A stretch of DNA of 64,000 nt from Branchiostoma floridae. Taxonomy: Eukaryota; Chordata; Leptocardii; Amphioxiformes; Branchiostomatidae. Location of the stretch: NCBI RefSeq assembly GCF_000003815.2, contig NC_049986.1:23672039-23736038 (forward strand). The letters run 5' to 3'. Below are positions 20,848-58,575 of the stretch, piece after piece (within the stretch, counting starts at the first letter, position 1; each line of letters opens with the position of its first letter). The notes beneath the pieces were generated by a model. It was given only the letters and a program-made list of their open reading frames with translations. It ran no database searches and was not told where the DNA came from. The position numbers were made by a program, and so were the translations under genes.

Positions 20848-23800
20848 ATGTCTTCTGACGAGGACGACGACAGGGGGTTAAAGGTCAGCGAGGGGGTCGC
20901 AGAGGAACGCCTCCAAGTGCCCCTCTCCTGGTATAAGCGTAGAACACTCCTCTTCAGGCAGAAGAAAAGAATTCCCCTCTTGGTAAGGAATCCCCAGCTG
21001 CAGAACTTTCTTACCACATGTAATGTATCACTATTTATGTCTCACAGTAGAGATCACGATCCAGTAGAATCGCCGATTCTCCTAGGAGAGATCGCAATCG
21101 GAATTTGTCCTAGGAGAGATCCTGATCGCAATCTGTACTGGCGATTCTACTAATACAGAGTGCGATCGGGATCTCTCGCACTATATACATACTGATGTGT
21201 GGATCACAAAACCAGCCTACCGCTGCCTGTAATGCAGGAGTATTGTACAGTTCTGCAATTCTTAAAGAAATGAAATGAAGTCAAAGCAAGAGACTTGTGA
21301 AGGTAGTATCTTATTGAACTTGGGGCATTCAGGTGCGTCTGTCCTTCGATAACGCAGATGTATCTTCACGGAACCTAGATGTGCCACCACGGAAACTAGA
21401 GGTGCAACAAGCAAACCCCAATGTGCTGATTGCAAGCACGACATGTTAAAAAATAATGCAAGTGGCAGGAATTGCCCCCACAGTGCCGCCACGATGCCAT
21501 CTGTCTAACGAACAAAGTTATCATGGATATAAAGTTATCATGGATATTCTAACACATAATCTCCCTTCCCCAGTGCTGTGGGCATGACAGCGATGACAGC
21601 GAGGTCGATGACCTCCACCTGGAGCTGGCCAGAAGCGACCTGGGGTCAGCAACCTCGCTACTATACCAGCTCCCCCAGGGGTCCTACATGGAGGGGGTTC
21701 TACCACTGCGATACGGGGAGGAGGTAATAATTTATTATTTAATTTATTTAATATTTGTTACAGACAACCAAGGTCGCCCAACTTATTGCTATTACAAAGG
21801 GCTGGCCTTGGAAAATATAAGTACATAAAATTTACAAAGTACATGTATAATACAAGGTTTATACATACTGTTATTGACTGTTTGATAAACATTTTGTGGC
21901 ATTGTAAGTACAGTACTGCCTCTATTAGTTTTTACACAGAGAATGGGTCCCCATGCAAGCGAGTCATCCAGGTTTTCCTCTCTTCTGTTGTTTCAGAGTC
22001 GGCCATATTTGTTGCTGAACAAGGTCAACTGCCCCTCCATGGAGGTCATCAGCGAGCACCTCCATCGGACATGGCAGATCGAGAGGCCAAAGGTCATCCT
22101 GTCGCTGTACTGCGAGCCCGAACACTTCAGCCTCTGGAAGCGGAGAAAGATCTACGACGCCCTTCAGACTGGGCTCATCAAGGTCAGATCCATGCACATC
22201 ATTTCTCTTCATCAAGATTTCTAACAATTTAGGAACACTTTTAATTTGTGATGATGAGTCACAACTAGGGGTGGGTACCGGTACAGGAAATTTAGGTAAA
22301 GGTACAGTCCAGGTCCAGAGGATCAGGTCCAGGTCTGGACCTGAACCTGGACCTGCTTGTCTGTGAAATCTCACGCTTCAATTTACAAAGACATCTGTTT
22401 GACAGAGTAATAAATTTCCAACTTCTATTGGCATTTTAAAAATGATTATCCTATCTTCATGTAAACAATACTAATGTCTAATGTTTATAGTCAACATCAA
22501 CACTTAATAGAATAACTTCCAAATTTTCGGTGTCTGCGCAGTACACCTTGATCATGAAATGGCCTTAGGTCTCGCAAGAGACTGAGGCCTAAGATTTATC
22601 ATAAAATAATAATGGTCACCTGGTGCACTGAGCAGAAACTGAAAATTTGGAGGTACTTGGTGGGTCATCGAAACAACAACAGTTGTGATATTTCGATGTT
22701 GGTTAGACATCCAGGTAATAAGATATGCCAAAAAGCAGTTACTCAAGCAACTGGATATAGTTTTGGAAAAGTCAGACGTTTCGGATAGAATCCACCATCT
22801 TTCGTCAGTGACACTGAAGTGACCTGGAAGAAACAGGTCTTTTATACTCTAACTATGAATGAAGACAATTTCAGTTGTCCAATAGGAAACGTTCTAAGAC
22901 AATTCAGACTGAAGACAATTTGGATTCCAAAGTGGACAAAGGTGAGGCAAAGTTGTGATATTGTAGATTTTTTTCTAAGTCTTGATAAGACTTGGATTGA
23001 CAACAGAATCTACCATATCCACCCCCAGCTTGCCTCCACCACCAACATGTGGCTCATCACCAACGGAGCGAACCTCGGCGTGGGGAAACTGGTCGGGGAC
23101 GCCATGAAGCGGGAGAAAGCGCGTAGGGAGTACATGATGTCAAAGGAAGATGACGACCAACCAATGCTGAGGGCGGTGGGGATCTCTCCCTTCTGTGCTG
23201 TGGCTCACATGATGCCCAGATGGGTCAGTACATGTCGTAGCCTTACACTACGTTACAGGCTTTAAGCTAGTACTACATTGTAGTGGTACTGAGTCAGACA
23301 TACAGTAACTGTAGATTTAATGCTAGAGTTGTCTTCAGGCTTTAAGTGAAGGAAGAGGAAGACCAGCCCAAGCTTTATTATTATGGATAGACTAAACTTT
23401 ATGTATCCAACCCGTGCTGAGGGCGGTGGGGATCTCTCCCTTCTGTGCTGTGACTCACATGATGCCCAGATGGGTCAGTAGTACATCTATTAGTTTCATT
23501 AGAAAAAATGAATGTCAGTAGCTACATTAAGTGGCTTTATTTATACGATAGTACATGACATTATTTCTAGTCAACTAGGAACTCATTTTGGAAGATTCAT
23601 TTCCACGTGTCCACCTGAAATCATATTTGACAAAATTTGTACTTATTCTGATCTAAAATGCCAGGCAGAAGCCATTTTTGTCTAGGTTCCACCATTTTCC
23701 GAGGAAACAAAGCATTTTCATGTGAGATTTTCTAAACTTACATTCACTGTATGGATGATTGACTAATTGATAAATGTTTACTCAATAAATATTCTATAAA

Positions 23801-32800: not shown

Positions 32801-34344
32801 GGTGCAGGGAGGCCCGGCCAGTATACAGTATGTACAGGGGTGTGTACAACAGGAGACTCCTGTACTCCTACTGAAGGGGAGTGGCAAGGCTGCCGATCTG
32901 CTGGCCTTTGCTTACGAGGAGATCAAAGAAAGGTGGGTACAGTAAGTTCTGAAGCACAGGTACAGGGGTTCGAATCCTGCCCAGTATACGTACAGTGGTG
33001 TGTGCAACAAGAGACTCCTGTACTCCTACTGAAGGGAAGCGGCAAGGCTGCCGATCTGCTGGCCTTTGCTTACGAGGAGATCAAAGAAAGGTGGGTACAG
33101 TAGTTCTGCTTCTGGTTTATCTGTTAAGGGGTTCAAATCCTGGTTTGTGTAGTCAACAGTACGTACAGGGGTGTGTGCAACAGGAGACTGCTGTACTCCT
33201 ACTGAAGGGAAGTGGCAAGGCAGCTGATCTGCTGGCCTTCGCTTACGAGGAGATCAAAGAAAGGTAAGTACTGAGTAAGTTCTGAAACAGAGCTTCCGGG
33301 GTTTGATTCCTGCCCAGTATACAGTACGTACAGGGATGTGTGCAGCAAGAGACTCCTGTACTTCTACTGAAGGGAAGCGGCAAGGCAGCCGATCTGCTAG
33401 CCTTCGCTTATGAGGAGATCAAAGAAAGGTGGGTACAGTAGTTCTGCTTCTGGTTTATCTGGTAAGGGGTTCAAGTCCCGCCCAGTAATTACAGTACATA
33501 CAGGGGTGTGTACAACAAGAGACTCCGGTACTGCTACTGAAGGGAAGTGGCAAGGCTGCCGATCTGCTGGCCTTAATGCTTACGAGGAGATCAAAGAAAA
33601 GTGGGTACAGACAGTTCTGAAACAAGATTCAGGGGTTCGAATCCTGCCAAGTATATACATGTAGTACGCACACAGGAGTGTGTACAACAGGAGACCCTTG
33701 CTTATCAGTCAGTCAGTCAGTCATAGTCATACGGTGTATTATAGCACCGTTGGGGTTATACCGCCCCTTACGGGGTGGCACACCCTTTCTTCTAGCTGAA
33801 TACAAGACGGGGATGCGCCATGTCTCCCGTACGATTGAATGATGTAATTCACCATGTGGCTGATACGGTATGGAGGTTTGCCAGACCTCCATCCGGGTGA
33901 TTTGAAATGATTAACCCTTGCTTCAAAGAAAGGTGGGTACAGTAAGTTCTGAAACACAGGTTTGGGGGTTTTGAATCCTGCCCAGTATATACATGTATAC
34001 AGTTACAGTAAAGGGGTATATGTTACAATACGCACAGGGGTATACAGTATATATGAAACGTTGGTACAGTAATTACAGTTTTCATGATTAAAATCCTCCC
34101 CAGGAAGACTAAATGCAGTACTTAAGAGTAAACCTGAGTCTGAGATGCTTCTAAAACATTTCTAATATAAAGTTTAACTTCTCTTTGTCTTGAACATTAC
34201 TACAGGCCTCCCCAGGATGACTGGATACAGTACCTAAGGGCAGAGCTGTCCAGGAGGATCTTTAAGACGTTCCCCAAGTTGTCTCAGGAGGAGGTTCAGG
34301 AGCTGAAGGAGTTGATCATCAACTGTGTCAATGACGCCATCAAG
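20848..34344 (+). CDS. TRPM2: TRPM2-like exons 1-7: N-terminal TRPM homology (SLOG) region
   Basis: Residues 1-381. Recognisable TRPM motifs: [17 protein letters not shown] (usually PxLLISVxGGxxNF), [28 protein letters not shown] (usually TGGxxxGVxxxVGEA), [38 protein letters not shown] (usually VxEGSGRxADxxA). In vertebrate TRPM2 this region contributes a nucleotide-binding SLOG fold. The otherwise conserved TGG is TNG here. Exon 5 lies 8.8 kb from exon 4; that intron carries a 7.8-kb inverted-arm segment. Confidence 0.9.
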
Positions 34345-37062: not shown

Positions 37063-37099
<37 letters not shown>

Positions 37100-46000: not shown

Positions 46001-49000
46001 CCTTCGGCGTAACACACCAGCTTCTGTATCTGTATCTATATAGCCGGTATAACCGCCATTCGGCGTAACACACCAGCTTCTGTATCTGTATCTATATAGC
46101 TGGTATAACTGCTGTTTGGCGTAACACACCAGCTTTGCAGGCATGTGGCGCGGCAGCAGCTGGTTATATTACACCGAACGACCCGCCACACCTAACTTTT
46201 GCACAGGTGTTGGCTGGCAAAGAAAAAAGAACCATTAATGAATGATTGTGTCAAATGTTTCTCCAGGTAACTGTGAGGGCCTGGTTGTAGTGCCACCCCC
46301 GGACCAACCTCCCAGTTGGTACGCCCCCAACGTTACCATGCCGACCTGCCCCGTGGAAACCTCGGATGCATGCGAGGGACACTGGTTCCTCTACATGTCT
46401 CTCAACTTCTACCTCATCTGTGTGAGGTTCGGCCTCCTCACCGTGCTCTTCGCTATGTTCAAGTGAGTCCCCGTCATCCTTTTGTTGTCCTAGAAACAAG
46501 GAAATAAGATGTTGTGACCGAAATGTTCAAAATCTAGTCTTTAAAGAGGATTGCACTTTTTTTTTATTTCGGTTACAAGCAAATGTCTAGTAAGCTACAT
46601 GACTTGTGTAAGCAAAGTACATTTGGGAGGGGCATGATTGTACAAATTTTTATGTCGTACCTGTGATGCGAAAACGTTCGATACTTTTCGTATCACATTA
46701 GGGTTTTAAGTTGTATCACACAGGCTCCCTTCGAGTAAATCAACCCATTTCAAACGGACCGAGTGCGGCACAGTTGACAATTCGAATACCTGATTCGGAC
46801 GTTGGAACATTGCTGTTGTAACACTTTTTTTGTTCGAAGGCACCAAATTTTTTCAACTTCTGGCGCATTTTGCATCAAAACATTGGGATTGGGTTTTCTC
46901 AGGTGGGTATGACATATTTAGATAAAGTACAACACGGTGTATTCCACATCACCCTCTGACTGTCCCAGCCCTCTCGCGAGTCGATCTGGTACCTCGCGAT
47001 CGGGTGATACGGAATACACCGTGTTTTATTCGACTATATATGAATCAGACACAATTGACATTGATTTTTTTTGATTGATAGAATCTGATTGTTCTTTAGG
47101 CCATACCAATTTAATCGCTAGGTTCTCAGATGCTGGCATTCAGAAATTCAGTAACAGGACAACATGTTGCTTAAGCCTGCATTCAATGGATCAATTTTCC
47201 TTGCTTGTATCTGTACTTGCAGTGACACATACCAGAGAGTACGCGGGGAGTCGCGAGAAATCTGGATGTACCAGCGCTACAAGCTCATCATCGACCTGGA
47301 CCGGCGGGACAGCCTGCCTCCTCCACTGGTCATCTTCCACTACATCTACATGCTGGGCCGCTACTTGTGCTGGTGCTGGAAGTGCAGAATTGTCACTAAG
47401 GTGGGGCTTTGTGTGTTTGTTTGTTGAGTGAGGGAGGGAGGGAATCAGTGAGTGAGAGGTGAAGGAATAAAGCTTGCTGCCGCCCCTGGTCGTGTTCCAC
47501 TTTATCTACATTCTGGGCCGCTACTTATGCTGGTACTGAAAGTGCCGCATTGTCACTAAGGCTGGTTTTTGTTTGTTGAGGGAGGGAGGGAATGAGTGAG
47601 TGAGAGGTGAAGGAATGAAGCCTGCCTTCACCACTGGTCGTGTTCCACTTTGTCTACATGCTCGGCCGCTACAATTTGTGCTAAGGTTTTTGTTTGTTTG
47701 TTGAGTGAGAGAGGGAATGAGTGAATGAGTGAGTGAATGGAGAAGGAATGAAGCCTGCCTCCGCCGCGCAGTTTGTGTTCCACTACATCTACATGCTGGG
47801 CCGCTACTTGTGCTGGTGCTGGAAGTGCAGGGTAGTCACTAAGGTGGGGCTTTGTGTGTTTGTTTAGTGATTGAGTGAGTGCGGGAATGAGTGAGTGAGT
47901 GGTGAAGGAATAAAGCTTGCTGCCGCCCCTGGTCGTCTTTCACTACGTCTACATCCTGGGCCGCTACTTGTGCTGGTGCTGGAAGTGCAGAATTGTCACT
48001 AAGGTGAATTTTTGTTTCTTTCTTTGATGGTGATTGAGGGAATGAATGAGTGAGTGAGTGAGTGAGTGAGTGAGTGAGTGAGTGAGTGAGTGAGTGAGTG
48101 AGTGTTGAAAGAATGAAGCTTGCCGCCACCACTGGTTGTCTTTCACTACATCTACATGCTGGGTCGCTACTTGTGCTGGTGTTGGAAGTGCAGGGTTGTC
48201 ACTAAGGTGGAGGTTTCTTTCTTTCTTTGATGGGTGATTGAGGGAATGAGTGAGTGAAGTGTGTGTTAAAAGAATGAAGCCTGCCTTCACCACTGGTCTT
48301 GTTCCACTACGTCTACATGCTGGGCCGCTACATGATTGTGCTAAGGTTGGTTTTTGTTTGCTTGTTGACTGAGAGAGGGAATGAGTGAGTGAGTGGAGAA
48401 GGAATGAAGCTTGCCTCCGCCGCGCAGGTTGTGTTCCATTATGTCTTCCTGCTCGACCGCTGCATTCGCTGGTGCTGGAAGTGCCACATTGTTACTAAGG
48501 AGAGGTTTTGTGTGTTTGTTGAGTGATTGAGTGAGTGAGTGAGTGGTGAAGGAAAGCTTGCTGCCATCCCTGGTCGTGTTCCACTTTGTCTACAAGCTGG
48601 ATCGCTACATGTGCTGGTGCGGGAAATGCCAAGTTTCCACTATGGTGAGTGTTTGTGTGTTTGTTTGTTTGCTAGTTTGCTTTTGTTTGGATAAGAGGAA
48701 GAAGAAACACTGAGAAAAAACAATAAACTGTACTATCCCCTCAGATCAAAGTGGCGTATGGAGAGAAGACCTACTCCAGCCAGGACATGGTGGATGGGGG
48801 GCTGGATGTTCCAGATGGAGAGGAACTTGATGAAGACAGGTTCAGCTTCTGGAAGTCCTGTGCTCACAGCTTCAACTCTAGCCAAAGGAAACAGGCAGCC
48901 CAGGAGGATAAACAAATGACACAGAATGATGTGTGAGTTTCAGTTAGGCGTAAGGGTTAGGGAGAACGAGAGAGTTACAGACAGTGTTCAGCTGCGCTCA

Positions 49001-52000
49001 CAGCTTCAACTCAAGTCACTCAGGAAACAGGTAGCTCAGGAGAGCAGACTGTCACAGACTGAAGTGTGAGTATTGGTTAGGGGTAAGGGTTAATGAGAAT
49101 GTTAGAGTTATACGTTTGGGAGAGGGTTCAGTTTCTGGAAGTCCTACGCTCACAGCTTCAACTACAGCCAGAGGAAACAGGCAGCTCAAGAGGATAAAAA
49201 GATGTCACAGATCGAATGATGTGAAAGTATTGGTTTAAGGGTAGGGGCTCCGAGGGTAAGAGTTCAAGGAGAGTGCCTACAGTTGGGAGAGGGTTTAGTT
49301 TAGGGAAGTCCAGTGCAGCTCAGGAGAGCAAACTGATGACACAAACTGAAGTGTGAGTTTGGGTTGTGGTTAGGATTTGTGTTGGGGCATTATTAAGTTT
49401 CAGATTCTGGAAGTAATAGGGGAAAGGTTGACTGTGTGTGACATGACAAGAAAATCAAGCGAGGCAGACTGAAGTAAGTGTCAGTTGCATTCAAGTGGAA
49501 TTTTTTTGTTTGGGCGTCCAAATCATTCCTGTATGTACTTTATGTTGCAAACCATCAGGAACTGGACTGGTTGTGAGCTTGTTTTAAGCAATGTCATAAC
49601 TGAAAGTTGGCCTCTTGAGCACTCTCATCCACTATAATTCTCTATTTCCAGAAATATATCATGTGAGTACAGCTGGTTATCAATGCCAAGTTGATTAGAA
49701 GGATGTATTGGTAACTCATTACTTTGGAGAGAATGTCATCCTCAATATCAAGATTGCCCTTTAAAGATCTCCTTTTTTTCCCCCAGCTATGAGCAGGTGA
49801 GCGATGACCTGTCCCGCCTGGACGTCCGGGTGAGGAGGAGGCACGACCGGCTCCACGATCGCGTCGTCAAGGTGGAGAAAATGATGCAGGAGAGCATGCT
49901 GACTCTGGAGACCATCAAACACCTGCTCCTGACAAAAGGTGGGTCACCATGGTTACTGTTGCCATGGGAACTGTTGCTATGGAAACTGTTGCTATGTAAG
50001 GTCGAAGGATGATGCAGGAGAGCATGCTGACTCTGGAGACCATCAAACACCTGCTGCTGACGAAAGGTGGGTCACCATGGTTACTGTTGCCATGGAAACT
50101 GTTGCTATGGAAACTATTGCTATGTAAGGTTGAAAGATGATGCAGGAGAGCATGCTCACCCTGGAGACCATTAAACACCTGCTCCTGACGAAAGGTGGGT
50201 CACCATGGTTACTGTTGCCATGGGAACTGTTGCCATGGAAACTTGCTATGGAAACTGTTGCTATGTAAGGATGGAAGATGATGCAGGAGAGCATGCTGAC
50301 CCTGGAGACCATCAAACACCTGCTCCTGACAAAAGGTGGGTCACCATGGTAACTGTTGCCATGGGAACTGTTGCTATGTAAGGTTGAAAGATGATGCAGG
50401 GCAGCTTGCTCACCCTGGAGACTTCTCAAACACCCCGAAAGGTTGGTCACCATGGTTACAACAGCTATGGGAACTGTTGCTATGTAAGGTTGAAAGGCGA
50501 TGCATGGGAGCTTGCTCATCCTGGAGACTTATCAAACACCAGCTGCTCATGAAGAAAAGTGGGTCACCATGGTTACAGTTGCCATAGAAACGTTTGCATT
50601 TGACCGCAGTATAATTGCAAGAATCACATGTACTATACATCAATATTACACGAAGTTAAAGCCTTGCATAACTATGATGGTGAAGTGTTAATGTTGGTGT
50701 TCAAGTCAGATGGGACACTCACAGCGGGTCAGCAATATGGTATGAAGTTACCAGATGACTGTAGATGGAGAAGGGAACGTTTTCGTGTCAGACTATGACG
50801 TACAATTTACAAATGTGTACAATATATTGGGGATGGACAGTTCCCGTTCAAGTTCGGAGGTAAGGGAAGTGGTGAAGGTCAGCTGTAGCTCCCCATGGCA
50901 TCCACACAGAGCAGGAGACATTGTGGGAGACAGTGGAAACAGCTGTGTGGAGCTGTTTGACCAGACAGGCAGATTCCTCAATCATGTCACTACTGACATT
51001 GTGGCACCACCAGCTGTTGCTATGACAGAACAGGCAAAAATCAATCTGCAAGCAGATGTCATCCATAGATTTAAGTCAGTGTGGCCTCATGTGGAAAAAA
51101 TCTCAACTCTAACATATTTGCATTTGCCAATAATTCAGCTTTCCTGATGAGTAAAGTGTGTGTGTTACAGAGTATGTCTCCACCATGCAGACTGCAGCAG
51201 CCAGACAGTCTCTGTACTTCAGTCTGACTGACAAAGTTTTGTACCTGAACATGTCACCAGTCTTCCTGCTTTAAATGTGTATAAATAATCTTTATTGTAT
51301 GTTACACTTACAGAGAGTAGAGAAGTTGAAGGTGTCTCCACCACACAGACCGGAGCGATCCTCCACATCGCAGCCCGACAGTCTCCCTACTTCGGCACCA
51401 AGAAGAAACGTTTCCCCGTGTTCGACAAGTACGTTCCCTGGAAGGTCCTGTTCGTGGAGTACGACCCTCCCCGCTACACCGCTCCCATGGAGTACTTCTC
51501 CGAGTGGTTCCGCCAGTTCGCTGACGAGGTCGATCCAAGGTTGGTTGACAATTCTCCCACAAAGCTCTCTCTGAGTTTAATATTAGTCAAAACTTACTAG
51601 GGAAAACACCCAGCAAAAGAGGAGATACCTCTGTGAAAATTCAAGCGTCTCAGACGGCGAAACGCCGTTTGCGACAACCGTCCAAGGCGTCTTAAATTAT
51701 TGGGACGCTTTGGACGGTTACGGCGGCGGACGGCATGGGACGGGCTTTTGAACGCCCGACGAAACGTCCAAGACGGTCCGAACGGCATAACAAACGCTTG
51801 GACGCGTCTAGATTGGCACTTAAGACGCGTCCGGTCGGACGTTCGGGACGTCCGAGACGGCGTCTGAAAGCGGGCAGCCGGACGCTCCCGCGCTCCGTCG
51901 GGCGGGCCCCCCGCTGGGAACAGACGTCTCTGCGGACGGACCAGACGCCGATTGCGACGGACGTAAATGACGTAATCCAGGCTGCTGGGACGGATCGGAC

Positions 52001-55000
52001 GCCGGTTGCGACGGGCATAAACGGCGTAATCCAGGCCGCTGGTACGGGCGGTAGCCTCCACCACGCCTTCCCACGGGGGGTACAGATCGTAAAATTCGAC
52101 AGAAAATAGAATGAAAGGCCAAGAGGCTGTCATCGCTATATTATTAAAGGTTAATATCTGGGCCAAACTCCTAGTAAAATATTTTTTCTTCAAGACACAG
52201 TTTTAGTTAGTCAGGCAGTACGGTAGAAACTCATAACGGGCCGGTGCATTTAATTTGGAACGTGCGTAGACGGCTGCCCGGACGCCGTTTCTGACGCCGT
52301 CCGGTCACGGCTATAATTTTATGGCCTGTTGGGACAACTTTGCCACATACCAAACAAACAAATATTCAGCCAGGCAGTGAATTGTAGAAGACCACCCACC
52401 ACCGGGCCGTCAGGTTTAGCTAAAATCAAACACAACTTGAACAAATTTCTTCGTAAATTGTTTACACGTACTCCGCGGCGTTTAATCAACTTTGCTACAT
52501 GTACGAAATTCAATCCGGCCTTCAATCGTGTCCGCGGCTTTTTGTGCCGCCGTGCCGACACGTTACATCAGAATGGACGAGCCCACATAACATCAAGGGT
52601 AAATACAGGACGTTTGAAATTTTCTATCGTAAATTTCAATTGCACCAGTATTTGCTAAAGACTGGATATATAAATGTGAAATAACGTTAAATTTTCTACA
52701 AAGATCATAAGTCATTTTTTTTATTTCGAGGTAGCGAAATAAAGTCTTCCGTTTCATAAGTTCCTAACCCCAAGTAGTTGGAAGAGCCGACTAAGATTTT
52801 GATTGGCACCGGCAAAATCGGTAGGTGCTATCTCATTATCTGTTGTCTAAATCTACATTTTAACAGCATTATCATTCTTAATAGAAACAACAGATATTTT
52901 TTACAAGTATTCTACAACGTGTTCATAATTCTTTTTATTTTGTGGCATCAAAACAAGATCCTAAATTTTATCATTTCTTCGCGTATGTGGGGAGGGCACC
53001 CGTAACAACAAGTCGTCGGTAAACTTTGCAACAGATGAATGTACAAAAAATTAGAATAAAATGCGAAGTATTCACTTACCGGCGCCTGCAAAGTATCGAC
53101 AATCAGCTAACGGAAGAACCGCTGCTTCTTTTGACGTCTGTCACATCTGTGATTTCTGCTGTCCAAGGTTTGCTGCTTCGAGTAAGTAGTATAATTTTTC
53201 CCCCTTGTCGGCGCACGACAAATAATTTGTGTACATTCTTTTTAGTATAAATAACGGATACAGTCATCGCCGTAAACCCAACCTCAGCACAATGTCGTAC
53301 AAACATCAGCTGCTACGTCTAGACGTGAAGTCCTTGGTCCAAAAGTGCGCAAAATTTAACAAACGGACATGAAATCCACAGAAATAGTCACCTTCTGAAC
53401 ATAAGTCCTGCAACCGCCGGAGTGTTCAACGGTCTGAAATTCGAATTCACCCGCTGAAATTAGCGCATGTGCAGAAGTTAAAACGTCATGTTTCCCGTGG
53501 GGATCATAAGAAAAGACGCAGCCGTCTGCCGGCGTCGGGTGACTAAGTATTTTATAGCCCCATCAGTGGCCGTCTCCGACGGCAATGGAAGGTCTTTCAG
53601 CCGTTCGGGCGTTCACCATAAAAACTGACAGAACGGCACGGACGCTCACGATGTGTCCGCGGCCGTTTCGGACGGCAATGAACGCGTCCAGAACGTCTGA
53701 AACGCGCTCGGACGCCATTGGACGCTTGTAGACGCCGTCCGGGCAGTTTCGGACGCTTGAATTTTCACAGAGGTATCTCCTGTGTGTATCTTCCCTTTTT
53801 TCCCTAATGTCAGAGGCCCATTCCTCCTCTCCTACTGCCTTTTACCTCCCAAATTTTTCTCCCCAGGACGATTCGAGACCTTGTCCGAAGACACCCTACA
53901 GTTCCTGTCCCTGGCCACTTCATCGTCCAGTATACATCCTCTTCCTTTCAGTCTATTGATCAAATAGTGGTGTCGACCCCTGACCCCAACATGTCAATCA
54001 TTGCCGTCTCCTCGGCAGTTGGACATCATTTGAAGAACAATTCATTACGCATTTTTACACTTGGGTAGAGCAAGGCAAGTCAATTTTTTGTTAAGTGCCT
54101 TTCCTTAAGGACACTGGATACGACGACGACGATACGACGACGACAGTGGATACTACTACTACCAAGCTGCCCACCCATTCGTCACTTTAATCTTGATAAC
54201 ATGATATTACTCTAACTACATTTTCCAGCGAATAGATAAATAAATACTTATTAGATTAATATTTTTCAGCACTCAGCAGCCACCCCCCGTGTGGAACGAT
54301 GTTGTTGGGTACAAGATGCAGATCTGGCACGAGGGGGAGGGGGGCGAGAGGGAACAGCTGGAGGAGGTCATGGAGGTCGATCGAAGGTCGTGGATCGAAG
54401 ACAAGGACAAAGGAGTCAGCATCAGATACAACATCATGGCAGAGGATGTACCACAGTAAGTTTGCCTGGTACCATCCAGAAAGTAGTTTGCTCTAGTGTT
54501 CATTATAATTTTATACTATATACAGTCGCTTCTTGCTCTGACATTCAATATACGCGGTATCATTTTGGATTCCGGACCAAAGCAACTTTGAACTTTTCTA
54601 AAACATCTCAAGATTTAACACAAAACCTCACGAATTTTGGTATAAATCTGTAATCTGTTGACTACCAGTTCTCACAATACTTTTAGCAGTCGATCTGTAA
54701 CAGGCTACAAGCATTTGTTCAAAGTGCTCTGCTGAGTCCAGTAAAACTGCTCGCTGTTGTCCATGTTTATGAAGTTGATCTGCCTGCTGTTCCCTTTTCA
54801 GGAACCCGATGGGCAGGACCGGGCTGAGAGGCAAGGGGGCGCTCTTTAGATGGGGCCCCAACCACAGCATGCTGGCCATCTGCACAAGGTAGGTGTAACC
54901 TGTTTAGATGGGGCCCCAACCACAGCATACTGGCCATCTGCACAAGGTAGGTGTAACCTGTTTAGATGGGCCCCAACCACAGCATACTGGCTATCTGCAC

Positions 55001-58000
55001 AAGGTGACTCCATGCATAATATCATTGGGAGTGCACGTGATAGGCATATGTAGTCCAGTGGTTAATGAGGAAGGTTCCACTTTAGGCACCCCAGAAATAT
55101 GGCTAGTGTAAACTATCTAAACTTAGCACAAAAAGTTTGGAATATTAACTTTGGCTGATCATATTTCCGTTGCTCATTTCACAAATTTATAATCATAATT
55201 ATAAGGAGTTTGATACCATATGAAAGGAAATCACACACGCTTTCTTTTGATATATAACACATTAAAATTGATGCAGAAAGAACGGAAATATGGTCAGCCA
55301 AAGTTGATACGTTGTATTCCAAACTTTTTGTGCCGAGTTTAGCTTCATTCTCTTACTGACTGTGCCATACTGTTAATACAATCATGTATACCTCTTTAAA
55401 TCTTTACTGCAATTAGCCCTCGGGCATGAATTTGCAATAAACATTATTGTTAACATGGGTACAGGGCAGGGCTGAGACACTGTAGACTAGAGTATCAAAT
55501 ACTTACTGTCTCTTTGACACACTTATAAGATTTAGAAACAACAGACTTTTACTTGCAAATGTAGTTTGCTGGCACATAAAGATGGAATCCTTCTGCTATG
55601 CCCGTAAACAGGAAAAATAGAATTTAGTAATGAGCCTGCTAGGGAAACCAGGCTCACAAACCAGAGTCACACTTTGCAGTAACCGCAGCTGCAGTGAATT
55701 TGCTTGGCTTCAATGAAAAATACTCACTGTCTCTTTGACACACTTATAACATTTAGAAACAACAGACTTTTACTTGCAAATGTAGTTTGCTGGCACATAA
55801 AGATAAAATACTTCTGCTTCCTCTAAACAGGAAGAATAGAATTTGATGTAATGAGCCTGCTTGGGAAACCAGGCTCACAAACCAGAGTCATACTTTGCAG
55901 TAATTCCAGCTGCAGTGAATTTGCTTGGCTTCAATGACTTCAATGATTAAACTCTGATGTTGAAGTACAGTAGAAGCCACTTAATTGCACGGCCTATTTG
56001 CCAGTGAATTTTGTGCAATTATCCAGCTGGTGCAATTATGCGTGAAGTTATCAACCTGGACCGCACTCGTTTGGGATTTGGGATTCCATGCAGTTAACAG
56101 AAGTGTTAATCTGTTGTGCAATTAACTGGCTTCTACTGTATATAACAATGGTACGTCACATTTCCTCCCACCAGATGGAAGCACGCGGTGGACCCAGCTA
56201 CTGGAGATGAGCAGGAGGAGTACCTGCTGGTGGAGGGGAAGAGAGTTCTGGAGTTCCTGTCCTACAAGGAGCCAGACTTCGAGGAGTGGGCCATACCTGG
56301 GGTGAGTGGGCCATACCTGGGGTGAGTGGGCCATACCTGGGGTGAGTGGGCCATACCTGGGGTGAGTGGTCATACCTCAAAACTGAAAATCTGACAAATG
56401 CACTTGGCGAAAGGTCCGTAATTGATTTGATCGATGAATTCATTGATTAATGCACCCAGACTGGAACTCAGTGTAACAGCATGCAGGATTTGGCAGTATA
56501 CGGTGTGCTGCACTAAAACTGTGGTAGTGGATCGATTGATCATTGGTTAATATTGATTATAGTTGATTGATTGATTGATTGATTTGTCCAGGCTATGATA
56601 ACTTCATTGATTGATTGATTGATTGATGTGTCTAGGCTATGACAGCAGGGTTGGAGAGTAAGTACAGCGTGCTGCATCGAGCCTTCTGCACAAAGGCTCT
56701 TGGGAAACAGCCGGCAGTGGTGGACAGGCACATGGACGAGAGCAAGGTCAAACAGGTGAGGCTCAAGGTCACATTAACTCACACTTACAGTTTCCTGCAA
56801 TGTAATGTTATACATTGTAGGCCACAATAATTTAATTCTTTTGTTCTTATTACATTGTCTAGATATTATCTGTATCTATCTGTATCTAATAGTATATAGC
56901 CGGTATAACGGCCCTTCGGCATAACACACCAGCTATTGAAGAGATTTGACTGACAAACATAATCATTGATTGATTGAGCTGTTGTACAAAAGAAAATTGT
57001 ACAGAATTGATGTAGATCTTTTAGCTTTATGTCTTACTTATCTTATTATAGGTAATATGAGTATTTTATATGAGTATATGAGTCTTTTTTATATAAAAAT
57101 GTAAAAAGCAAAGTACTTCCAAGAAGAAAATGTGCTCATGCAATTGTATCAGTCTGGAAATATTTGCAGTGGTTTTATTAGGAAATCCACAGTTTTTCTT
57201 CGAGCCTCTACATAAATAAATCCTAATAGTGCAAATGTGTGTTTTTGTACTACAGAATTGCTTCTAAGAGACAAAAAAATGGCTTTCCCCTTCTAGAAGT
57301 CCCTGGGGGGAACATTATTGAACTTTCATGTATTAATTTTTTTTTTTCAACATATTTTTATTTATTGAAAATGACAACAAATCATTACTCTGGGTCAGCC
57401 TAGGCAGGCTATGTAAGCTGATGACGGCTGACCCACAAAGATACGACAAACAAACAAATCTAAATTACACATATGTACAGAATAGGCCACATAGGCTACA
57501 TAAGCTATGAGGAGCAGATGGAAGGTGCTGTAAATATGAGTTTGTAGCGAAGTTATGACCTGGAGAACCATTAAGGAGGACTCCGGTTGAGAGAGACTGG
57601 CCGACAAGGTGGAGCACTGTATTAATGTTGTTTTACAGTTGTTTGAAGCCTACACAGCGGATGAGAGAGACTGCCCTTCGTCTGAGCGGGATGACTCCAT
57701 CGAGACCTTCTCGGCCGCCATGATCTACCGGGGTTACGTGGACGACCCCCGGAACACGGACAGTGCCTGGGTCGAGACGGAGGCGTGGCACTTCCACTAC
57801 GAGAGCGGAGAAAGTTTCCTGGAGGAGGAGATGGTCACGGTAAGTTCACATTTTTTTTTCTATCCAACTTGTACCCCTTAAATATTGGCACCCTGTTTTG
57901 AGATCTACATTGCATTGTACATGAAAAAAGAAAAAGATAACTTATATAAGTGGTCTGATGGTATCAAATAGGGACAACAGACTCTTGTTACTGACTTCTT

Positions 58001-58575
58001 AGACACCTGCCTTGTTTCACCTGTATTTCTCACCTGCACTGTTTCACCTGTATTTCTCACCTGCACTGTTTCACCTGTATTTCTCACCTGCCTTGTTTCA
58101 CCTGTATCTCTGACCTGCCTTGTTTCACCTGTATTTCTCACCTGACTTGTTTCACCTGTATTTCTCACCTGCCTTGTAACACCTGTATTTCTCACCTGCA
58201 CTGTTTCACCTGTATTTCTCACCTGCCTTTTTTCACCTGTATTTCTCACCTGCCTTTTTTCACCTGTATTTATCACCTGCCTTGTCTCACCCGTATCTCT
58301 CACCTGCCTTGTCTTACCTGTATTTCTCACCTGTCTTGTAACAACTGTATTTCTCACCTGCCTTGTCTCACCTGTATATTTCACCTGCCTAGTAACACCT
58401 GTATTTCTTACCTGTCATTCTCCACCTGTATATTTCTCACCTGCCTTGTCTCACCTGTACATCTCACCTGCAGGCTGGCAGCAGGTGGCAGGAAGTGTCC
58501 CGACATGTGAAGCTGTTTGCCAGCCACGCCTCAGTCATCCAGGAGGCAGCAGCAAGACTCAACGCCTACTTCTGA
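20848..58575 (+). CDS. TRPM2: TRPM2-like cation channel with C-terminal NUDT9-H domain
   Basis: Coding exons: 20848-20982, 21574-21723, 21997-22182, 23029-23223, 31994-32159, 32761-32932, 34206-34344, 35876-35969, 36148-36272, 36929-37057, 37602-37661, 38300-38458, 39744-39922, 40262-40508, 40786-40938, 41754-41888, 42605-42748, 43553-43633, about 44070-44244, 44838-45012, 46267-46462, 47223-47400, 48745-48932, 49787-49938, 51314-51539, 54270-54455, 54802-54888, 56175-56301, 56636-56755, 57639-57839, 58474-58575. All junctions are AG/GT and phases chain, except for one apparent frameshift in the 44 kb exon. About 1,586 residues, against about 1,500 in human TRPM2. Order: TRPM homology (SLOG) region, ankyrin-like helical repeats, S1-S6, TRP helix, coiled coil, NUDT9-H. 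TRPM2 is a tetrameric plasma-membrane cation channel gated by ADP-ribose and Ca2+. Key gating residues are altered here (see findings), so it is probably a divergent paralog. Start chosen: first in-frame ATG after the leader acceptor, acidic [10 protein letters not shown]. Confidence 0.93.
22250..22370. repeat. GGTCCAGGTC palindromic dispersed repeat
   Basis: 'ggggtgggtaccggtacagg' is followed by 'caggtctggacctgaacctg'. It matches 61343-61428 in intron 1 of RTK copy C. Likely one end of a MITE; the partner end was not found. Confidence 0.45.
23395..23480 (+). repeat. Copy of the 3' end of TRPM2-like exon 4
   Basis: About 66 bp ('gtgctgagggcggtggggat' through 'gatgcccagatgggtcagta') repeats the exon 4 end and its donor with one visible mismatch. 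Upstream similarity ('gaagaggaagaccagccca') is weaker. There is no acceptor directly before it. Confidence 0.85.
24070..24256. repeat. CCTGCAGG palindrome-rich satellite (left arm)
   Basis: About twelve 'ttcctgcaggaa' palindromic units, many in 27-bp periods with 'gcgttt' spacers. Open frames across it (QEFLQ-type peptides) are repeat artefacts. Confidence 0.9.
25797..25962 (+). repeat. tRNA-derived SINE ('cgacagcggtagcg' head)
   Basis: The upstream module 'gttcctaccgtccttgctaa', head 'ttgtggcgacagcggtagcg' and tail 'ctgttctactcgcccctctg' are present. Its inverse copy is at 41924-42085, where the B box is better kept. Confidence 0.75.
26043..26208. mobile_element. Foldback MITE with C/A homopolymer loop
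   Basis: The arm 'cgggctagacgagttcggc' (before the C-run near 26105) is mirrored by 'gccgaactcgtctagcccg' (about 26156-26174). The outer arms 'ggaatatacacctg' and 'ccggtgtatattcc' also pair. A partial duplicate of the loop flank ('gccaagcttcccagag') follows at 26283. Confidence 0.8.
26320..26420 (-). repeat. Dispersed repeat, inverse of 36405-36515
   Basis: Shares 'ggggtcattaaccccagcca' with the complement of the 36.4-kb copy, and the flanking 'tgtgtaaacacaggct'. Identity unknown. Confidence 0.6.
26610..26720. repeat. 'gcttaacggtgaattc' tandem repeats, cluster 1
   Basis: Three degenerate units of about 35 bp with core 'gcttaacggtaaattcag'. The same core recurs at 27790-27945. Confidence 0.75.
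27351..27493 (+). repeat. tRNA-derived SINE ('ggcttaagcc' head)
   Basis: Head 'acggcttaagcctttatggc', B box 'gggttcgaatcccgg' and tail 'ttactcgcccctctggttg'. Sister of 16151-16283. Confidence 0.8.
27790..27945. repeat. 'gcttaacggtgaattc' tandem repeats, cluster 2
   Basis: Four or five degenerate units with the same core as 26610-26720, about 1.1 kb away. The pair may be ends of one element. Confidence 0.65.
28000..31376. other. Intron 4 interior, no feature recognised
   Basis: AT-rich sequence with no exon fitting the flanking phase. A tRNA-like inverse head may lie at about 28030-28090 ('gattttaacctgggcccgcc'), too degenerate to call. Confidence 0.3.
32187..32658. mobile_element. piggyBac-like MITE with TTAA target duplication (472 bp)
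   Basis: TTAA at 32183-32186, then AGGGATATATTGTA; the other end reads TACATTATATCCCT followed by TTAA at 32659-32662. TTAA duplications are diagnostic of piggyBac-type transposition. It sits 27 bp downstream of the exon 5 donor. Confidence 0.75.
32980..33960 (+). repeat. Tandem copies of the 3' part of TRPM2-like exon 6 with its donor
   Basis: After the real exon 6 (32761-32932) a unit of about 155-170 bp repeats. Copies of 'cagtatacgtacaggggtgt' ... 'gagatcaaagaaag' + GTGGGTAC end near 33091, 33264, 33429 and 33602, with a fifth, split copy ending near 33930. Each unit keeps a GT after AAAG. Spacer DNA carries 'ggggttcgaatcctgccca'. Identity is high; the coding frame is kept in several copies. 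Confidence 0.9.
34683..34960 (+). repeat. tRNA-derived SINE
   Basis: Full copy of the family at 6295-6576: 'ccggtgcaatggccaagtgg', 'gtgagttctatccccggccg', body, and the tail 'gcaaactttaacttt'. Confidence 0.85.
35183..35711. mobile_element. piggyBac-like MITE with TTAA target duplication (529 bp)
   Basis: Ends AGGGGCATTCCACATGGGAG and the inverse CTGGAGTGGAATGCCCCT, flanked by TTAA at 35179-35182 and 35712-35715. No open frame of note. Confidence 0.8.
35876..40508 (+). CDS. TRPM2: TRPM2-like exons 8-14: cytosolic helical repeats before S1
   Basis: Residues 382-712. Family landmarks: [23 protein letters not shown] (usually LKLAVAWNRVDIARSEIF), [36 protein letters not shown] (usually DLLIWAIxxNRxELAxIIW), [33 protein letters not shown]. 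All phases chain (94, 125, 129, 60, 159, 179, 247 nt). TRPM channels use this helical region for subunit assembly. Confidence 0.92.
36405..36515 (+). repeat. Dispersed repeat (copy of 26320-26420 inverse)
   Basis: 'ggctggggttaatgaccccc' with flanking 'tagcctgtgtttacacaa'. Family unknown. Confidence 0.6.
36599..36657. repeat. Perfect 28-bp inverted repeat with 3-bp spacer
   Basis: Arms 36599-36626 and 36630-36657 are exact complements around TGA. It lies in intron 9. It could extrude as a cruciform or give a hairpin transcript; no family partner is seen in the window. Confidence 0.95.
37065..37550. repeat. (TG)n tracts around a degenerate copy of exon 10's 3' end
   Basis: Two long TG/CG-rich tracts flank 37261-37330, which repeats exon 10 ('gaccaaggggactttctcac', 'aggagcaggtacaggaga') with a stop (TAG in 'gtcttagagc') and no donor. 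Thr/His- or Cys/Val-rich frames across it are artefacts. Confidence 0.9.
38459..39012 (+). repeat. Tandem copies of TRPM2-like exon 12 3' end plus intron
   Basis: A unit of about 180 bp ('cagcttccagaagagaacta' + AGG, then 'caaagaaaaattgtcatcag') repeats with copies ending near 38640, 38825 and 39008. The second copy has a GTGGGTGAAC donor context, as in the real exon 12. Confidence 0.9.
39109..39440 (+). repeat. tRNA-derived SINE ('catggcgcagtggtagcg' head)
   Basis: The cloverleaf-like head 'catggcgcagtggtagcgtg' ... 'aagttcaaaccctgccgtgc' is followed by 'cttgggaaaggcactttcct' and a body ending 'gaagaagaag'. A different head family from the other SINEs here. Confidence 0.75.
40786..47400 (+). 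CDS. TRPM2: TRPM2-like exons 15-22: pre-S1, S1-S6, pore and TRP helix
   Basis: Residues 713-1124. S1 region from [14 protein letters not shown] and [18 protein letters not shown]2 [18 protein letters not shown]3 [20 protein letters not shown]4 [11 protein letters not shown] and [21 protein letters not shown]5 [19 protein letters not shown]; pore helix and filter [17 protein letters not shown]; turret [11 protein letters not shown] with Cys; S6 [21 protein letters not shown] helix [15 protein letters not shown]. Exon 19 needs a +1 correction in a 'ttctttcttcttccc' tract to join the S4 halves in frame; its acceptor (AG at 44068-44069) was chosen by phase, and AG at 44088-44089 is an alternative. 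Confidence 0.88.
41924..42085 (-). repeat. tRNA-derived SINE, minus strand
   Basis: Inverse of 25797-25962, with B box (as read on -) 'gggttcaatcccgggtggcg' and tail 'ttctgttctactctcccctc'. Confidence 0.8.
42385..42604 (+). repeat. Two upstream copies of the exon 17 acceptor region
   Basis: A unit of about 104 bp. Copies near 42395-42440 and 42493-42556 repeat the start of exon 17 ('gattttcctgttcctgctgt' 'ccctgtcc') before the real exon at 42605. The second keeps CCCCAG plus CTGTGTTACATG; both end in in-frame stop-like TATAA contexts. Confidence 0.85.
42776..43219. mobile_element. Composite palindromic MITE, copy 1
   Basis: A left module bounded by TGTCATACC and GGTATGACA is followed by a module with 'acaacacggtgtattccgca' / 'cagaatacaccgtgttgta' ends. 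The same pair in the same order is at 46652-47030. Confidence 0.75.
43303..43368 (+). repeat. Copy of the 3' part of TRPM2-like exon 17
   Basis: 'tggatgacgacatccatcgt' and 'gaaccatatacaggga' repeat the exon 17 end with several substitutions. Confidence 0.8.
44245..44720 (+). repeat. Minisatellite derived from the S4 exon
   Basis: About fifteen units of roughly 30 bp, 'gtgtacgtgttcgctcccaa' + 'cagtgtctgt'. The unit equals the exon 19 coding stretch 'ctgtacgtgttcgctccgaa' + 'cagtctct' with few changes. It begins right after the exon 19 donor. It stays open in several frames on both strands, which produces long artefactual ORFs. Confidence 0.95.
45154..45202 (+). repeat. Copy of the pore-exon 3' end with donor
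   Basis: 'gagaccctggctacatgtct' ... 'gactacttggaag' + GTGGGA repeats the exon 20 end ([15 protein letters not shown], same amino acids) about 190 bp downstream. Confidence 0.9.
45230..45545. mobile_element. MITE with 'aactggttgtgtaaaaga' ends
   Basis: 'cttttacacaaccagttttt' and 'tttcgatgtctttcggacat' near 45250-45305 are mirrored by 'aaaaactggttgtgtaaaag' near 45520 and 'gacagacatcgaaacatcag' near 45475. Confidence 0.7.
45743..46197 (+). repeat. Seven tandem copies of the GGTATAACC hairpin repeat plus tail module
   Basis: A 51-57-bp unit 'gctggtataaccgccgttcg' 'gcgtaacacaccagc' 'ttctgtatctgtatctatat'. Each unit holds CGCC-GTTC-GGCG and an outer GCTGGT/ACCAGC pair. The array ends with 'ggcgcggcagcagctggtta', as in 7019-7116. 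Confidence 0.9.
46652..47030. mobile_element. Composite palindromic MITE, copy 2
   Basis: Same two modules as 42776-43219 with about 10-15% difference by eye, for example 'attcgaatacctgattcgga' class sequence shared exactly. Confidence 0.75.
47401..48660 (+). repeat. Tandem array of exon 22 3' ends (eight further copies)
   Basis: Copies of 'ctacatctacatgctgggcc' ... 'tggaagtgcag' + 'attgtcactaag' begin near 47489, 47633, 47772, 47930, 48131, 48293, 48428 and 48570, separated by (GAGT)n-rich spacers. Several keep GT after AAG (for example 47843/47844 and 48003/48004); others have lost it or carry stops. Confidence 0.92.
47772..47843 (+). CDS. TRPM2: Candidate in-frame duplicated cassette exon
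   Basis: Preceded by CGCAG and followed by GTGGGG. 72 nt = 24 codons, starting and ending in phase 0, exactly as required between exons 22 and 23. It reads [20 protein letters not shown] then VVTK, which would repeat the TRP-helix-distal segment of exon 22. The polypyrimidine tract is weak ('gcctgcctccgccgcgcag'). Could be a splice-competent copy or a chance survivor. Confidence 0.3.
48745..49938 (+). CDS. TRPM2: TRPM2-like exons 23-24: post-TRP linker and coiled coil
   Basis: Residues 1125-1238. Exon 23 is acidic, ending [20 protein letters not shown]; exon 24 has the heptad-like [20 protein letters not shown] followed by [10 protein letters not shown], equivalent to the TRPM coiled coil that assembles tetramers. 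Confidence 0.88.
48933..49360 (+). repeat. Copies of exon 23 3' end
   Basis: Three degenerate copies ('cagcttcaactcaagtcact', 'aggaaacaggcagctcaaga', 'gatgacacaaactgaagtgt') with donor-like GTGAG after 'gtcacagactgaagt'. Confidence 0.85.
49939..50580 (+). repeat. Array of exon 24 3' ends with GTTGCCATGG motifs
   Basis: Five further copies of 'atgatgcaggagagcatgct' ... 'ctcctgacgaaag' + GTGGGT in a unit of about 125-140 bp. Intronic parts contain repeated GTCACCATGGTTAC, GTTGCCATGGAAAC and GTTGCTATGGAAAC. Confidence 0.93.
50670..51130 (+). pseudogene. Degenerate NHL-repeat (TRIM/TRIM71-like) gene fragment
   Basis: In intron 24, pieces in shifting frames read as NHL repeats: [19 protein letters not shown], then [20 protein letters not shown], then [18 protein letters not shown] in another frame with a stop, then [20 protein letters not shown] in a third. 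This ordered set (VTVDGEGN-IxVSDxxNxxVxVF, DGxFxFKFGxxGxGxGQL, SGNSCVxVFDxxGxF) is typical of amphioxus-rich NHL/TRIM families. Two or more frameshifts and lack of splice sites indicate a pseudogene insertion. Confidence 0.7.
51165..51245 (+). repeat. Possible degenerate copy of exon 25 start
   Basis: 'gtatgtctccaccatgcaga' and 'gcagccagacagtctctgta' + 'cttc' resemble exon 25 'gtgtctccaccacacagacc' and 'gcagcccgacagtctcccta' with a deletion between. Confidence 0.5.
51314..58575 (+). CDS. TRPM2: TRPM2-like exons 25-31: NUDT9-H domain
   Basis: Residues about 1238-1586. Landmarks shared with NUDT9/TRPM2: [20 protein letters not shown] then [83 protein letters not shown]. In vertebrates this domain binds ADP-ribose; in invertebrate TRPM2 it also hydrolyses it. 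The Nudix box at the exon 28/29 junction is degenerate (RAFCTK in place of REFGEE), so hydrolysis is not expected. TGA stop at 58573-58575. Confidence 0.95.
51621..53780. mobile_element. 2.16-kb element with 29-bp perfect TIRs
   Basis: Ends begin GGAGATACCTCTGTGAAAAT and are exact inverses over 29 bp (51621-51649 / 53752-53780). Subterminal 'ggacgcc/ggcgtcc'-type repeats (51650-52110, 52260-52310, 53515-53750) are strongly palindromic and GC-rich. No transposase is recognised; open frames of 100-198 codons on both strands over the repeat show no known domain. Superfamily not assigned. Confidence 0.85.
54889..55010 (+). repeat. Two further copies of exon 27 3' end
   Basis: 'agatggggccccaaccacag' ... 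'ctggccatctgcacaag' + GTAGGTGTAACCTGTTT repeats with 57-58-bp period. The first downstream copy keeps the whole donor; the second has GTGACT. Confidence 0.95.
55115..55345. mobile_element. Foldback MITE
   Basis: 'aaacttagcacaaaaagttt' + 'ggaatattaactttggctga' on the left pairs with 'tcagccaaagttgatacgtt' + 'gtattccaaactttttgtgc' on the right. Confidence 0.75.
55410..55450 (+). repeat. Retroelement 3' tail fragment
   Basis: 'gcaattagccctcgggcatg' + 'aatttgcaataaac', as at 6690-6780. Confidence 0.45.
55493..55938 (+). repeat. Tandem duplication of a 222-bp intronic unit
   Basis: Two adjacent copies ('cttactgtctctttgacaca' ... 'gaatttgcttggcttcaatg') with a few substitutions. No exon is involved. 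Confidence 0.95.
55968..56138. mobile_element. Tc1/mariner-like MITE (171 bp)
   Basis: Ends CAGTAGAAGCCACTTAATTG and, inverse, CAGTAGAAGCCAGTTAATTG, flanked by TA on both sides. It ends 36 bp before exon 28. Confidence 0.8.
56302..56370 (+). repeat. 20-bp repeat of the exon 28 donor
   Basis: GAGTGGGCCATACCTGGGGT occurs four times head to tail, including the exon end, then degenerates. It gives four identical donors at 20-bp steps. Only the first is productive: readthrough meets TGA after seven codons. Confidence 0.95.
56540..56630. repeat. (GATT)n microsatellite and decoy acceptor
   Basis: GATT runs precede exon 29. 'gtccaggctatgata' at 56586-56600 copies the acceptor and first codons of exon 29 ('tctaggctatgaca'). 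Confidence 0.8.
56862..56934 (+). repeat. Solo copy of the GGTATAACC hairpin repeat
   Basis: 'gccggtataacggcccttcg' + 'gcataacacaccagc' preceded by 'ctgtatctatctgtatcta'. Confidence 0.7.
58015..58472 (+). repeat. 26-bp minisatellite that runs into the last exon's acceptor
   Basis: About sixteen units of 'cacctgtatttctcacctgc' + 'cttgtt'. The final unit becomes 'catctcacctgcag', the acceptor of exon 31. Confidence 0.95.

Follow-up and report, generated by a model that had tools for sequence, protein, structure and literature searches.

Mirage-type tandem repeats at exon edges in an inverted pair of TRPM-family genes of Branchiostoma floridae

The tandem repeats that straddle exon/intron boundaries in a TRPM-family gene of Branchiostoma floridae and in its inverted paralog (herein copy A and copy B) are of a kind already known, the amphioxus mirage minisatellites; what is new is their density and a paralog pair that shows their turnover. 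Junction arrays occur at 13 of the 60 junctions of copy A and at 14 of the 58 of copy B. The identification as mirage-type, proposed in an earlier reading of the DNA letters (herein the sequence-only reading), is upheld: the unit spans a boundary in 13 of the 22 arrays of copy A and 14 of the 22 of copy B, far more than at the other exons that we sampled. With reservations, the data still favor a modest bias of the arrays toward exon edges, donor and acceptor alike, and real edge targeting is not secure. Two array-rich genes offer a way to approach the origin of minisatellites and the question of whether exon edges differ from other sequence in this respect.

The two TRPM-family genes

The window is a 64,000-nucleotide stretch of contig NC_049986.1 (assembly GCF_000003815.2, positions 23,672,039 to 23,736,038), and copy A occupies positions 20848-58575 of it on the + strand. 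The gene model, built from sequence, has 31 exons with GT/AG at all junctions, its numbering agrees with that of the sequence-only reading, and translated pieces of seven of its N-terminal exons match TRPM chains in the PDB. A TRPM-beta-like clade with amphioxus members appears in the available part of a recent phylogeny (PMC13143021). A protein search of the genome located copy B on the same chromosome, inverted and ~270 kb from the start of copy A, with an open frame of 1631 codons plus stop whose protein carries SLOG-in-TRPM and TRPM2-like Pfam domains. Exons 2-17 and 20-31 of copy A are confirmed by copy B; in copy B, the exon mapping required manual placement of the outer ends of E1, E5, E16 and E18, and E1 has diverged.

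The pair has been under constraint. Over 1498 aligned codons, with E18-E19 left out, the two copies share 91% identity, with dN ~0.04, dS 0.32-0.36 and dN/dS 0.12-0.14. These values give no support to the suggestion of the sequence-only reading that the locus is under weak constraint, and they speak against a pseudogene; a recent relaxation of copy A alone is possible because its exon 19 is frame-shifted. That exon (44070-44244) is shifted relative to copy B, apparently twice in an alignment read by eye, and is the sole such exon of copy A, all the others being in frame in the gene model. The shift could reflect either an assembly error or damage to copy A. Exons 24 (49787-49938) and 27 (54802-54888) are 100% identical between the copies, whereas 24 of the 31 exons lie at 84-95.3%, and recent gene conversion between A and B is a possible explanation for the two.

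Intron 18 (window 43634-44089) is present in copy A and missing from copy B, in which E18 and E19 form a single exon (gene coordinates 27017-27259); in a relative on C16, a predicted exon starts, by eye, a few codons from the intron 18 position. No local duplication was called inside intron 18 of copy A that would make it the product of a tandem duplication. Within intron 24 of copy A lies an open stretch (50746-51144) whose letters presumably resemble NHL/TRIM.

Junction arrays in copies A and B

Arrays were called by self-comparison, as direct copies at most 700 bp apart with a score of at least 40, and low-complexity matches were dropped; Tandem Repeats Finder returns 61 rows in the window. 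Copy A contains 22 local arrays, comprising 12 donor-type, one acceptor-type (E17) and nine intronic (table 1). The left end of the 12 donor-type arrays lies 18-132 bp within the exon, from where they extend across the donor. The sequence-only reading had listed arrays at the donors of E4, 6, 10, 12, 17, 19, 20, 22, 23, 24, 27 and 28, and all 12 do have an array reaching into the exon, as does the E17 acceptor; however, those at E4, E10, the E17 donor and E20 consist of one extra copy 189-614 bp away and are no minisatellites. Its further statement that each unit holds the end of the exon plus the splice site stands in part. A stricter rule asked that a single arm hold 12 bases of exon and 3 of intron; it retained 10 of the 30 donors of copy A and one of its 30 acceptors. 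The similarity at E17 and E20 ends at the donor, short of three intron bases, and the E19 unit lacks the E19 donor. The array that it placed at the E31 acceptor stops at the acceptor and contains zero exon sequence, and at the E29 acceptor a copy is visible by eye amid GATT repeats but is uncalled in copy A as low-complexity, with an array called in copy B.

Table 1. Tandem arrays and duplications of copy A, in window coordinates
Feature	Position	Strand	Description
E4 donor duplication	23157..23480	+	one extra copy at +250, 96-98% identical, plus 25-bp fragment; none found in B
E6 donor array	32810..33997	+	unit ~165 bp, 5 copies; 5 in B
E10 donor	36982..37548	+	one extra copy (~89%) at ~+275 amid TG repeats; also in B
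E12 donor array	38432..39018	+	184-bp unit, 4 copies; exon copy and 22-bp trace in B
E17 acceptor array	42395..42654	+	unit ~110 bp, copies upstream of used acceptor; also in B
E17 donor	42692..43355	+	one partial extra copy at ~+614; none found in B
E19 array	44113..44759	+	30-bp unit, ~15 copies directly after donor; exon 19 and intron 19 sequence without donor; none found in B
E20 donor	44962..45203	+	one extra copy at +189; none found in B
Intronic 56-bp array	45743..46135	+	no junction
E22 donor array	47311..48667	+	lags from 160 bp, 7 copies reaching donor, 8 intronic pieces in sensitive search; 2 copies in B
E23 donor array	48839..49377	+	unit ~134 bp, 4 copies; none found in B
E24 donor array	49869..50597	+	106-141-bp units, 6 copies; 8 in B
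E27 donor array	54842..55005	+	58-bp unit, 3 copies; none found in B
Intronic 221-bp duplication	55497..55937	+	no junction
E28 donor array	56284..56377	+	20-bp unit, ~4.8 copies; identical 18-bp exon reach in B
27-bp unit adjoining E31 acceptor	58003..58472	+	17 copies, without exon sequence

Six of the nine intronic arrays of copy A sit in a 7.8-kb stretch of intron 4 (23917-31709) that is probably a mobile element; it has 190-nt inverted ends that are 99% complementary and contain TTCCTGCAGGAA minisatellites, and intron 4 of copy B measures 391 bp. In the 30-bp unit at E19 (44183-44280), the exon is seemingly fused to the intron at a common ACAGT with the intervening donor dropped, which may possibly record a microhomology step in the birth of the array.

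Copy B likewise holds 22 arrays, of which six are donor-type (E5, 6, 10, 22, 24, 28), eight acceptor-type (E7, 16, 17, 18, 25, 26, 29, 30) and eight intronic; all 14 of its junction arrays pass the stricter rule (11 in copy A). To sort arrays as common or private, every intron was searched at high sensitivity for copies of its own exon edge. Those found in both copies belong to the donors of E6, E10, E12 (a 22-bp trace in B), E22 and E24 and to the acceptors of E7, E17 and E25; the E28 donor array, which falls below the length limit of that search, is also common by its identical 18-bp exon reach. This brings the arrays in both copies to six donor and three acceptor, the others being private. 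Private to copy A are the donors of E4, 17, 19, 20, 23 and 27, with zero acceptors, and private to copy B are the donor of E5 and the acceptors of E16, 18, 26 and 30.

The common arrays were probably inherited from before the A/B split. The view of the sequence-only reading that the arrays are independent events thus holds in part, and does not extend to these nine. Nineteen junctions carry more than one copy in at least one of the two genes, and at 18 of them, all except E6, the copy numbers of A and B are unequal; the E7 acceptor, for example, has two copies in A and seven in B (for E22 and E24, see table 1). Units of A and B are interleaved in unit trees of E6, E24 and E22 with mixed support, which hints at partial inheritance of the arrays. 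Most simply, some arrays would be older than the A/B duplication and others younger, with the proviso that gain in one copy and loss from the other look alike.

Excess at exon edges and its explanations

Arrays of the observed lengths were placed at random, after exclusion of any placement that fell inside one exon, covered one entirely or extended across more than one, because selection would remove arrays that wreck exons; among the arrays called in A or B, none contains a whole exon or lies wholly within one. Against this expectation, 13 of the 22 arrays of copy A lie at a junction versus 5.3 expected (P = 0.0017), 14 of copy B versus 4.2 (reached in 0 of 3000 runs), and 27 of 44 in both copies versus 9.4 (0 of 4000 simulations), a 2.9-fold excess. 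Leaving out the intron-4 element does not abolish the excess (27 of 38 versus 10.2). For arrays near exons only, the figures are 27 of 33 versus 18.7 within 150 bp (1.4-fold, P = 0.002), 27 of 35 versus 15.8 within 300 bp and 27 of 36 versus 13.8 within 500 bp. Masking of exons, which corrects for visibility because an exon copy under selection keeps a junction array recognizable longer, leaves 13 of 37 arrays with at least two edge copies versus 21% expected (1.6-fold, P = 0.038). Repeats cover a large part of copy A throughout its length, and a rotation test on covered bases there gave 8-10 of 30 donors versus ~6 (P 0.04-0.20 in four settings) and one acceptor versus six, and is insensitive because the arrays are long and mostly intronic; array edges are the better statistic. 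Over these tests, the excess amounts to 1.4- to 2.9-fold, of which some part may be mutational.

As a control, 200 kb was taken from other parts of the genome, in four 50-kb blocks set at round coordinates. They contain 32 arrays, about one-third the density of copy A (22 in 38.5 kb) and copy B (22 in 45.5 kb). Ab initio prediction yielded 45 exons in these blocks at a score that gives seven on reversed DNA, and 40 after five within one minisatellite had been dropped; copies A and B had supplied its training set, which biases the predictor toward exons resembling theirs. The 40 exons have one donor array and zero acceptor arrays, and 1 of the 32 control arrays is at a predicted exon edge, in blocks where exons are sparse. 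Thirteen other predicted exons in the window have zero junction arrays at either edge, which agrees with the statement of the sequence-only reading that there are none at its RTK copy B, the RTK label being that reading's own. In total, arrays touch 27 of 118 exon edges of A and B (25 by the rule used for the controls) versus 1 of 106 control edges from 53 predicted exons (P = 2e-7 for 27).

We consider it probable that these mirage-type minisatellites of a repeat-rich gene pair were formed by ordinary tandem duplication, filtered by selection against exon-wrecking arrays and, where they sit at one exon edge, hidden by splicing, with a modest true edge excess on both sides. Slippage, unequal exchange or gap repair would produce the duplications, part of them before the A/B split and part of them later. 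Arrays inside an exon or spanning a whole exon would be purged by selection, and those with one exon edge would survive because the outermost copy is still joined to the rest of the exon, exon definition consigning the surplus copies to the intron. Through their conserved exon copy, junction arrays would also stay recognizable longer than purely intronic ones, and a modest excess of births at exon edges probably exists on both exon sides, not at donors alone.

That there is no targeting at all, and that random minisatellites, purifying selection and the better visibility of arrays with a conserved exon copy suffice, is a tenable but rather unlikely alternative. The fall of the excess to 1.6-fold (P = 0.038) with exons masked speaks for it, as does the evolution of the extra copies, which is as if neutral; however, the excess is just as large when only the strongest arrays are counted (12 of 20 at junctions in A and B versus 4.2) and it persists near exons, as in the 300-bp comparison.

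The two inverted, 91%-identical paralogs with common and private arrays amount to a natural experiment that sets transcription against chromosome-direction effects. Private arrays are divided six donor to zero acceptor in copy A and one to four in the inverted copy B (P = 0.015), such that 10 of 11 lie on one chromosomal side of their exon (P = 0.012), a pattern of small numbers that was noticed post hoc. It is absent among the common arrays, and the C16 gene has two arrays of each type. In a skew test for chromosome direction, intronic AT skew flips sign with gene orientation and GC skew is near zero, giving no support for a replication effect. We regard as improbable the reading in which tandem duplication truly has hot spots at exon edges and the edge is chosen by chromosomal direction, such as the direction of the replication fork, and not by transcription or splicing.

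Still less probable is the proposal of the sequence-only reading, a mechanism that targets 5' splice sites through transcription- or splicing-coupled duplication. Copy A alone, with 12 donor arrays and one acceptor array (P = 0.003), would favor it, but copy B has six donor-type and eight acceptor-type arrays; the donor preference is therefore confined to copy A, and neither exon edge is spared. With the copies combined, donor-type arrays outnumber acceptor-type by 18 to 9 (P = 0.12), or 13 to 8 as distinct junctions (P = 0.38). The difference between A and B (P = 0.013) is unexpected for a mechanism bound to the transcript, and the even division in the C16 gene is likewise against it. A genome-wide count is in its favor: the donor word AAGGTGAGT forms 62 pairs 30-60 bp apart versus 22 for the reversed word, with single sites numbering 4578 and 4187; the 62 pairs fall in 18 places by a hand count made for the donor word only. 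We reject donor targeting because it is not seen in copy B, and the A/B comparison removes what had chiefly supported an attraction of these repeats to donors per se.

The extra splice sites themselves are for the most part intact: of 46 extra donors, GT persists in 42 and 33 equal the used site in strength, and AG persists in 17 of 17 extra acceptors, as would be expected if selection kept them as functional decoys or spare sites. This explanation is very unlikely, and selection on the sites was dropped as a candidate, since the high GT retention disappeared with alignments that had to extend beyond the junction. Among 29 extra donor copies aligned well past it, GT is retained at 93% (54 of 58 letters), compared with 94% for the last three exon letters, 89% for exon positions -19 to -3 and 84% for +3 to +6, so that there is no clear GT excess over the 84-94% around it; the equivalent acceptor copies number only six, with AG at 12 of 12 letters. 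The extra sites seem to be bystanders that decay neutrally.

Judged from the reading frame only, splicing uses the first donor of a donor array and the last acceptor of an acceptor array, since the remainder of the exon is attached to this outermost copy alone; exon definition may be what selects it. The intron after E24 of copy B contains seven extra donors and the frame of the gene is still open, which illustrates the number of strong decoy splice sites that a single intron can tolerate. Normal mRNA is predicted despite the extra sites, to which the open frame of copy B and the matching exons of copy A would conform.

An assembly artefact, although repeats are a known source of assembly errors and a globin mirage was aberrantly assembled in the draft genome according to its authors (PMC3087553, in the available text), is hardly credible because the copies differ from the exon by up to ~25% (74-100% identity) and several arrays recur in the paralog with equal or near-equal exon reach, the private ones lying between exons that align.

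Known mirages, TRPM relatives and other loci

The available text of the globin study describes mirages on either exon side in amphioxus BflGb6 and BflGb9, with splicing apparently undisturbed, haplotypes of differing length and a proposal of intron gain, and it cites papers on Adh3, retinol dehydrogenase and presenilin for similar structures (PMC3087553); that of the PGBD5 study describes them at 5' and 3' splice sites and cites Adh and troponin C (PMC3902484). The arrays of the TRPM pair resemble these in having tandem units across the exon/intron boundary, on either exon side, with splice signals duplicated (PMC3087553, PMC3902484), the E19 unit being an exception, and unit sizes are similar (10-160 bp in the globin and Adh3 mirages as given there; 20 to ~200 bp here) (PMC3087553). 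Globin and Adh3 data in the same texts suggest undisturbed splicing (PMC3087553, PMC3902484). Where the published mirages, as far as the available accounts go, involve one or two junctions per gene, the TRPM genes have them at 13 of 60 junctions (A) and 14 of 58 (B), in a paralog pair that separates common from private arrays. In a limited literature search that most journals lay outside, no gene-wide or genome-wide study of mirages was found, and this argues only weakly that there is none.

Intron gain by tandem genomic duplication is similar in that a local duplication copies splice signals; in the available description, however, the duplication lies within an exon and the AGGT copies make a new intron (PMC3443670), whereas here an existing junction is spanned, and no new intron made by duplication was seen at the arrays of A or B. 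Intronic VNTRs that modulate splicing, such as TERT VNTR6-1, share with the TRPM arrays the setting of a tandem repeat in an intron of a conserved gene; the partial accounts at hand do not mention an exon-edge origin for their units, whereas the units here copy an exon edge.

A third, diverged TRPM gene on C16 has 17 predicted exons, after five of 22 predictions that were repeat copies had been dropped. Of five arrays in the tested stretch, four are at junctions (two donor, two acceptor) versus 1.6 expected (P = 0.036, with one exon end and one array start set by hand), and one more array is located past the final exon. A relative on C11, as far as it was retrieved, has zero arrays at four predicted exons, three of seven predictions having been dropped as lying inside a minisatellite and flagged at both edges. 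A myosin-head search gave no obvious adjacent duplicate partial matches, at low sensitivity.

In the control block at C1:12.00-12.05 Mb, a large minisatellite on the minus strand (42039-45184), whose units read VLAPVALGSPQQLF in the printed frame, was the source of the five false exons. Tandem arrays that bear a donor, with coding-like units before it, occur at C9:8154653-8158565, C13:19385804-19386510 and C6:20337385-20337750, and at least three of the listed AAGGTGAGT units look like coding sequence running into a donor.
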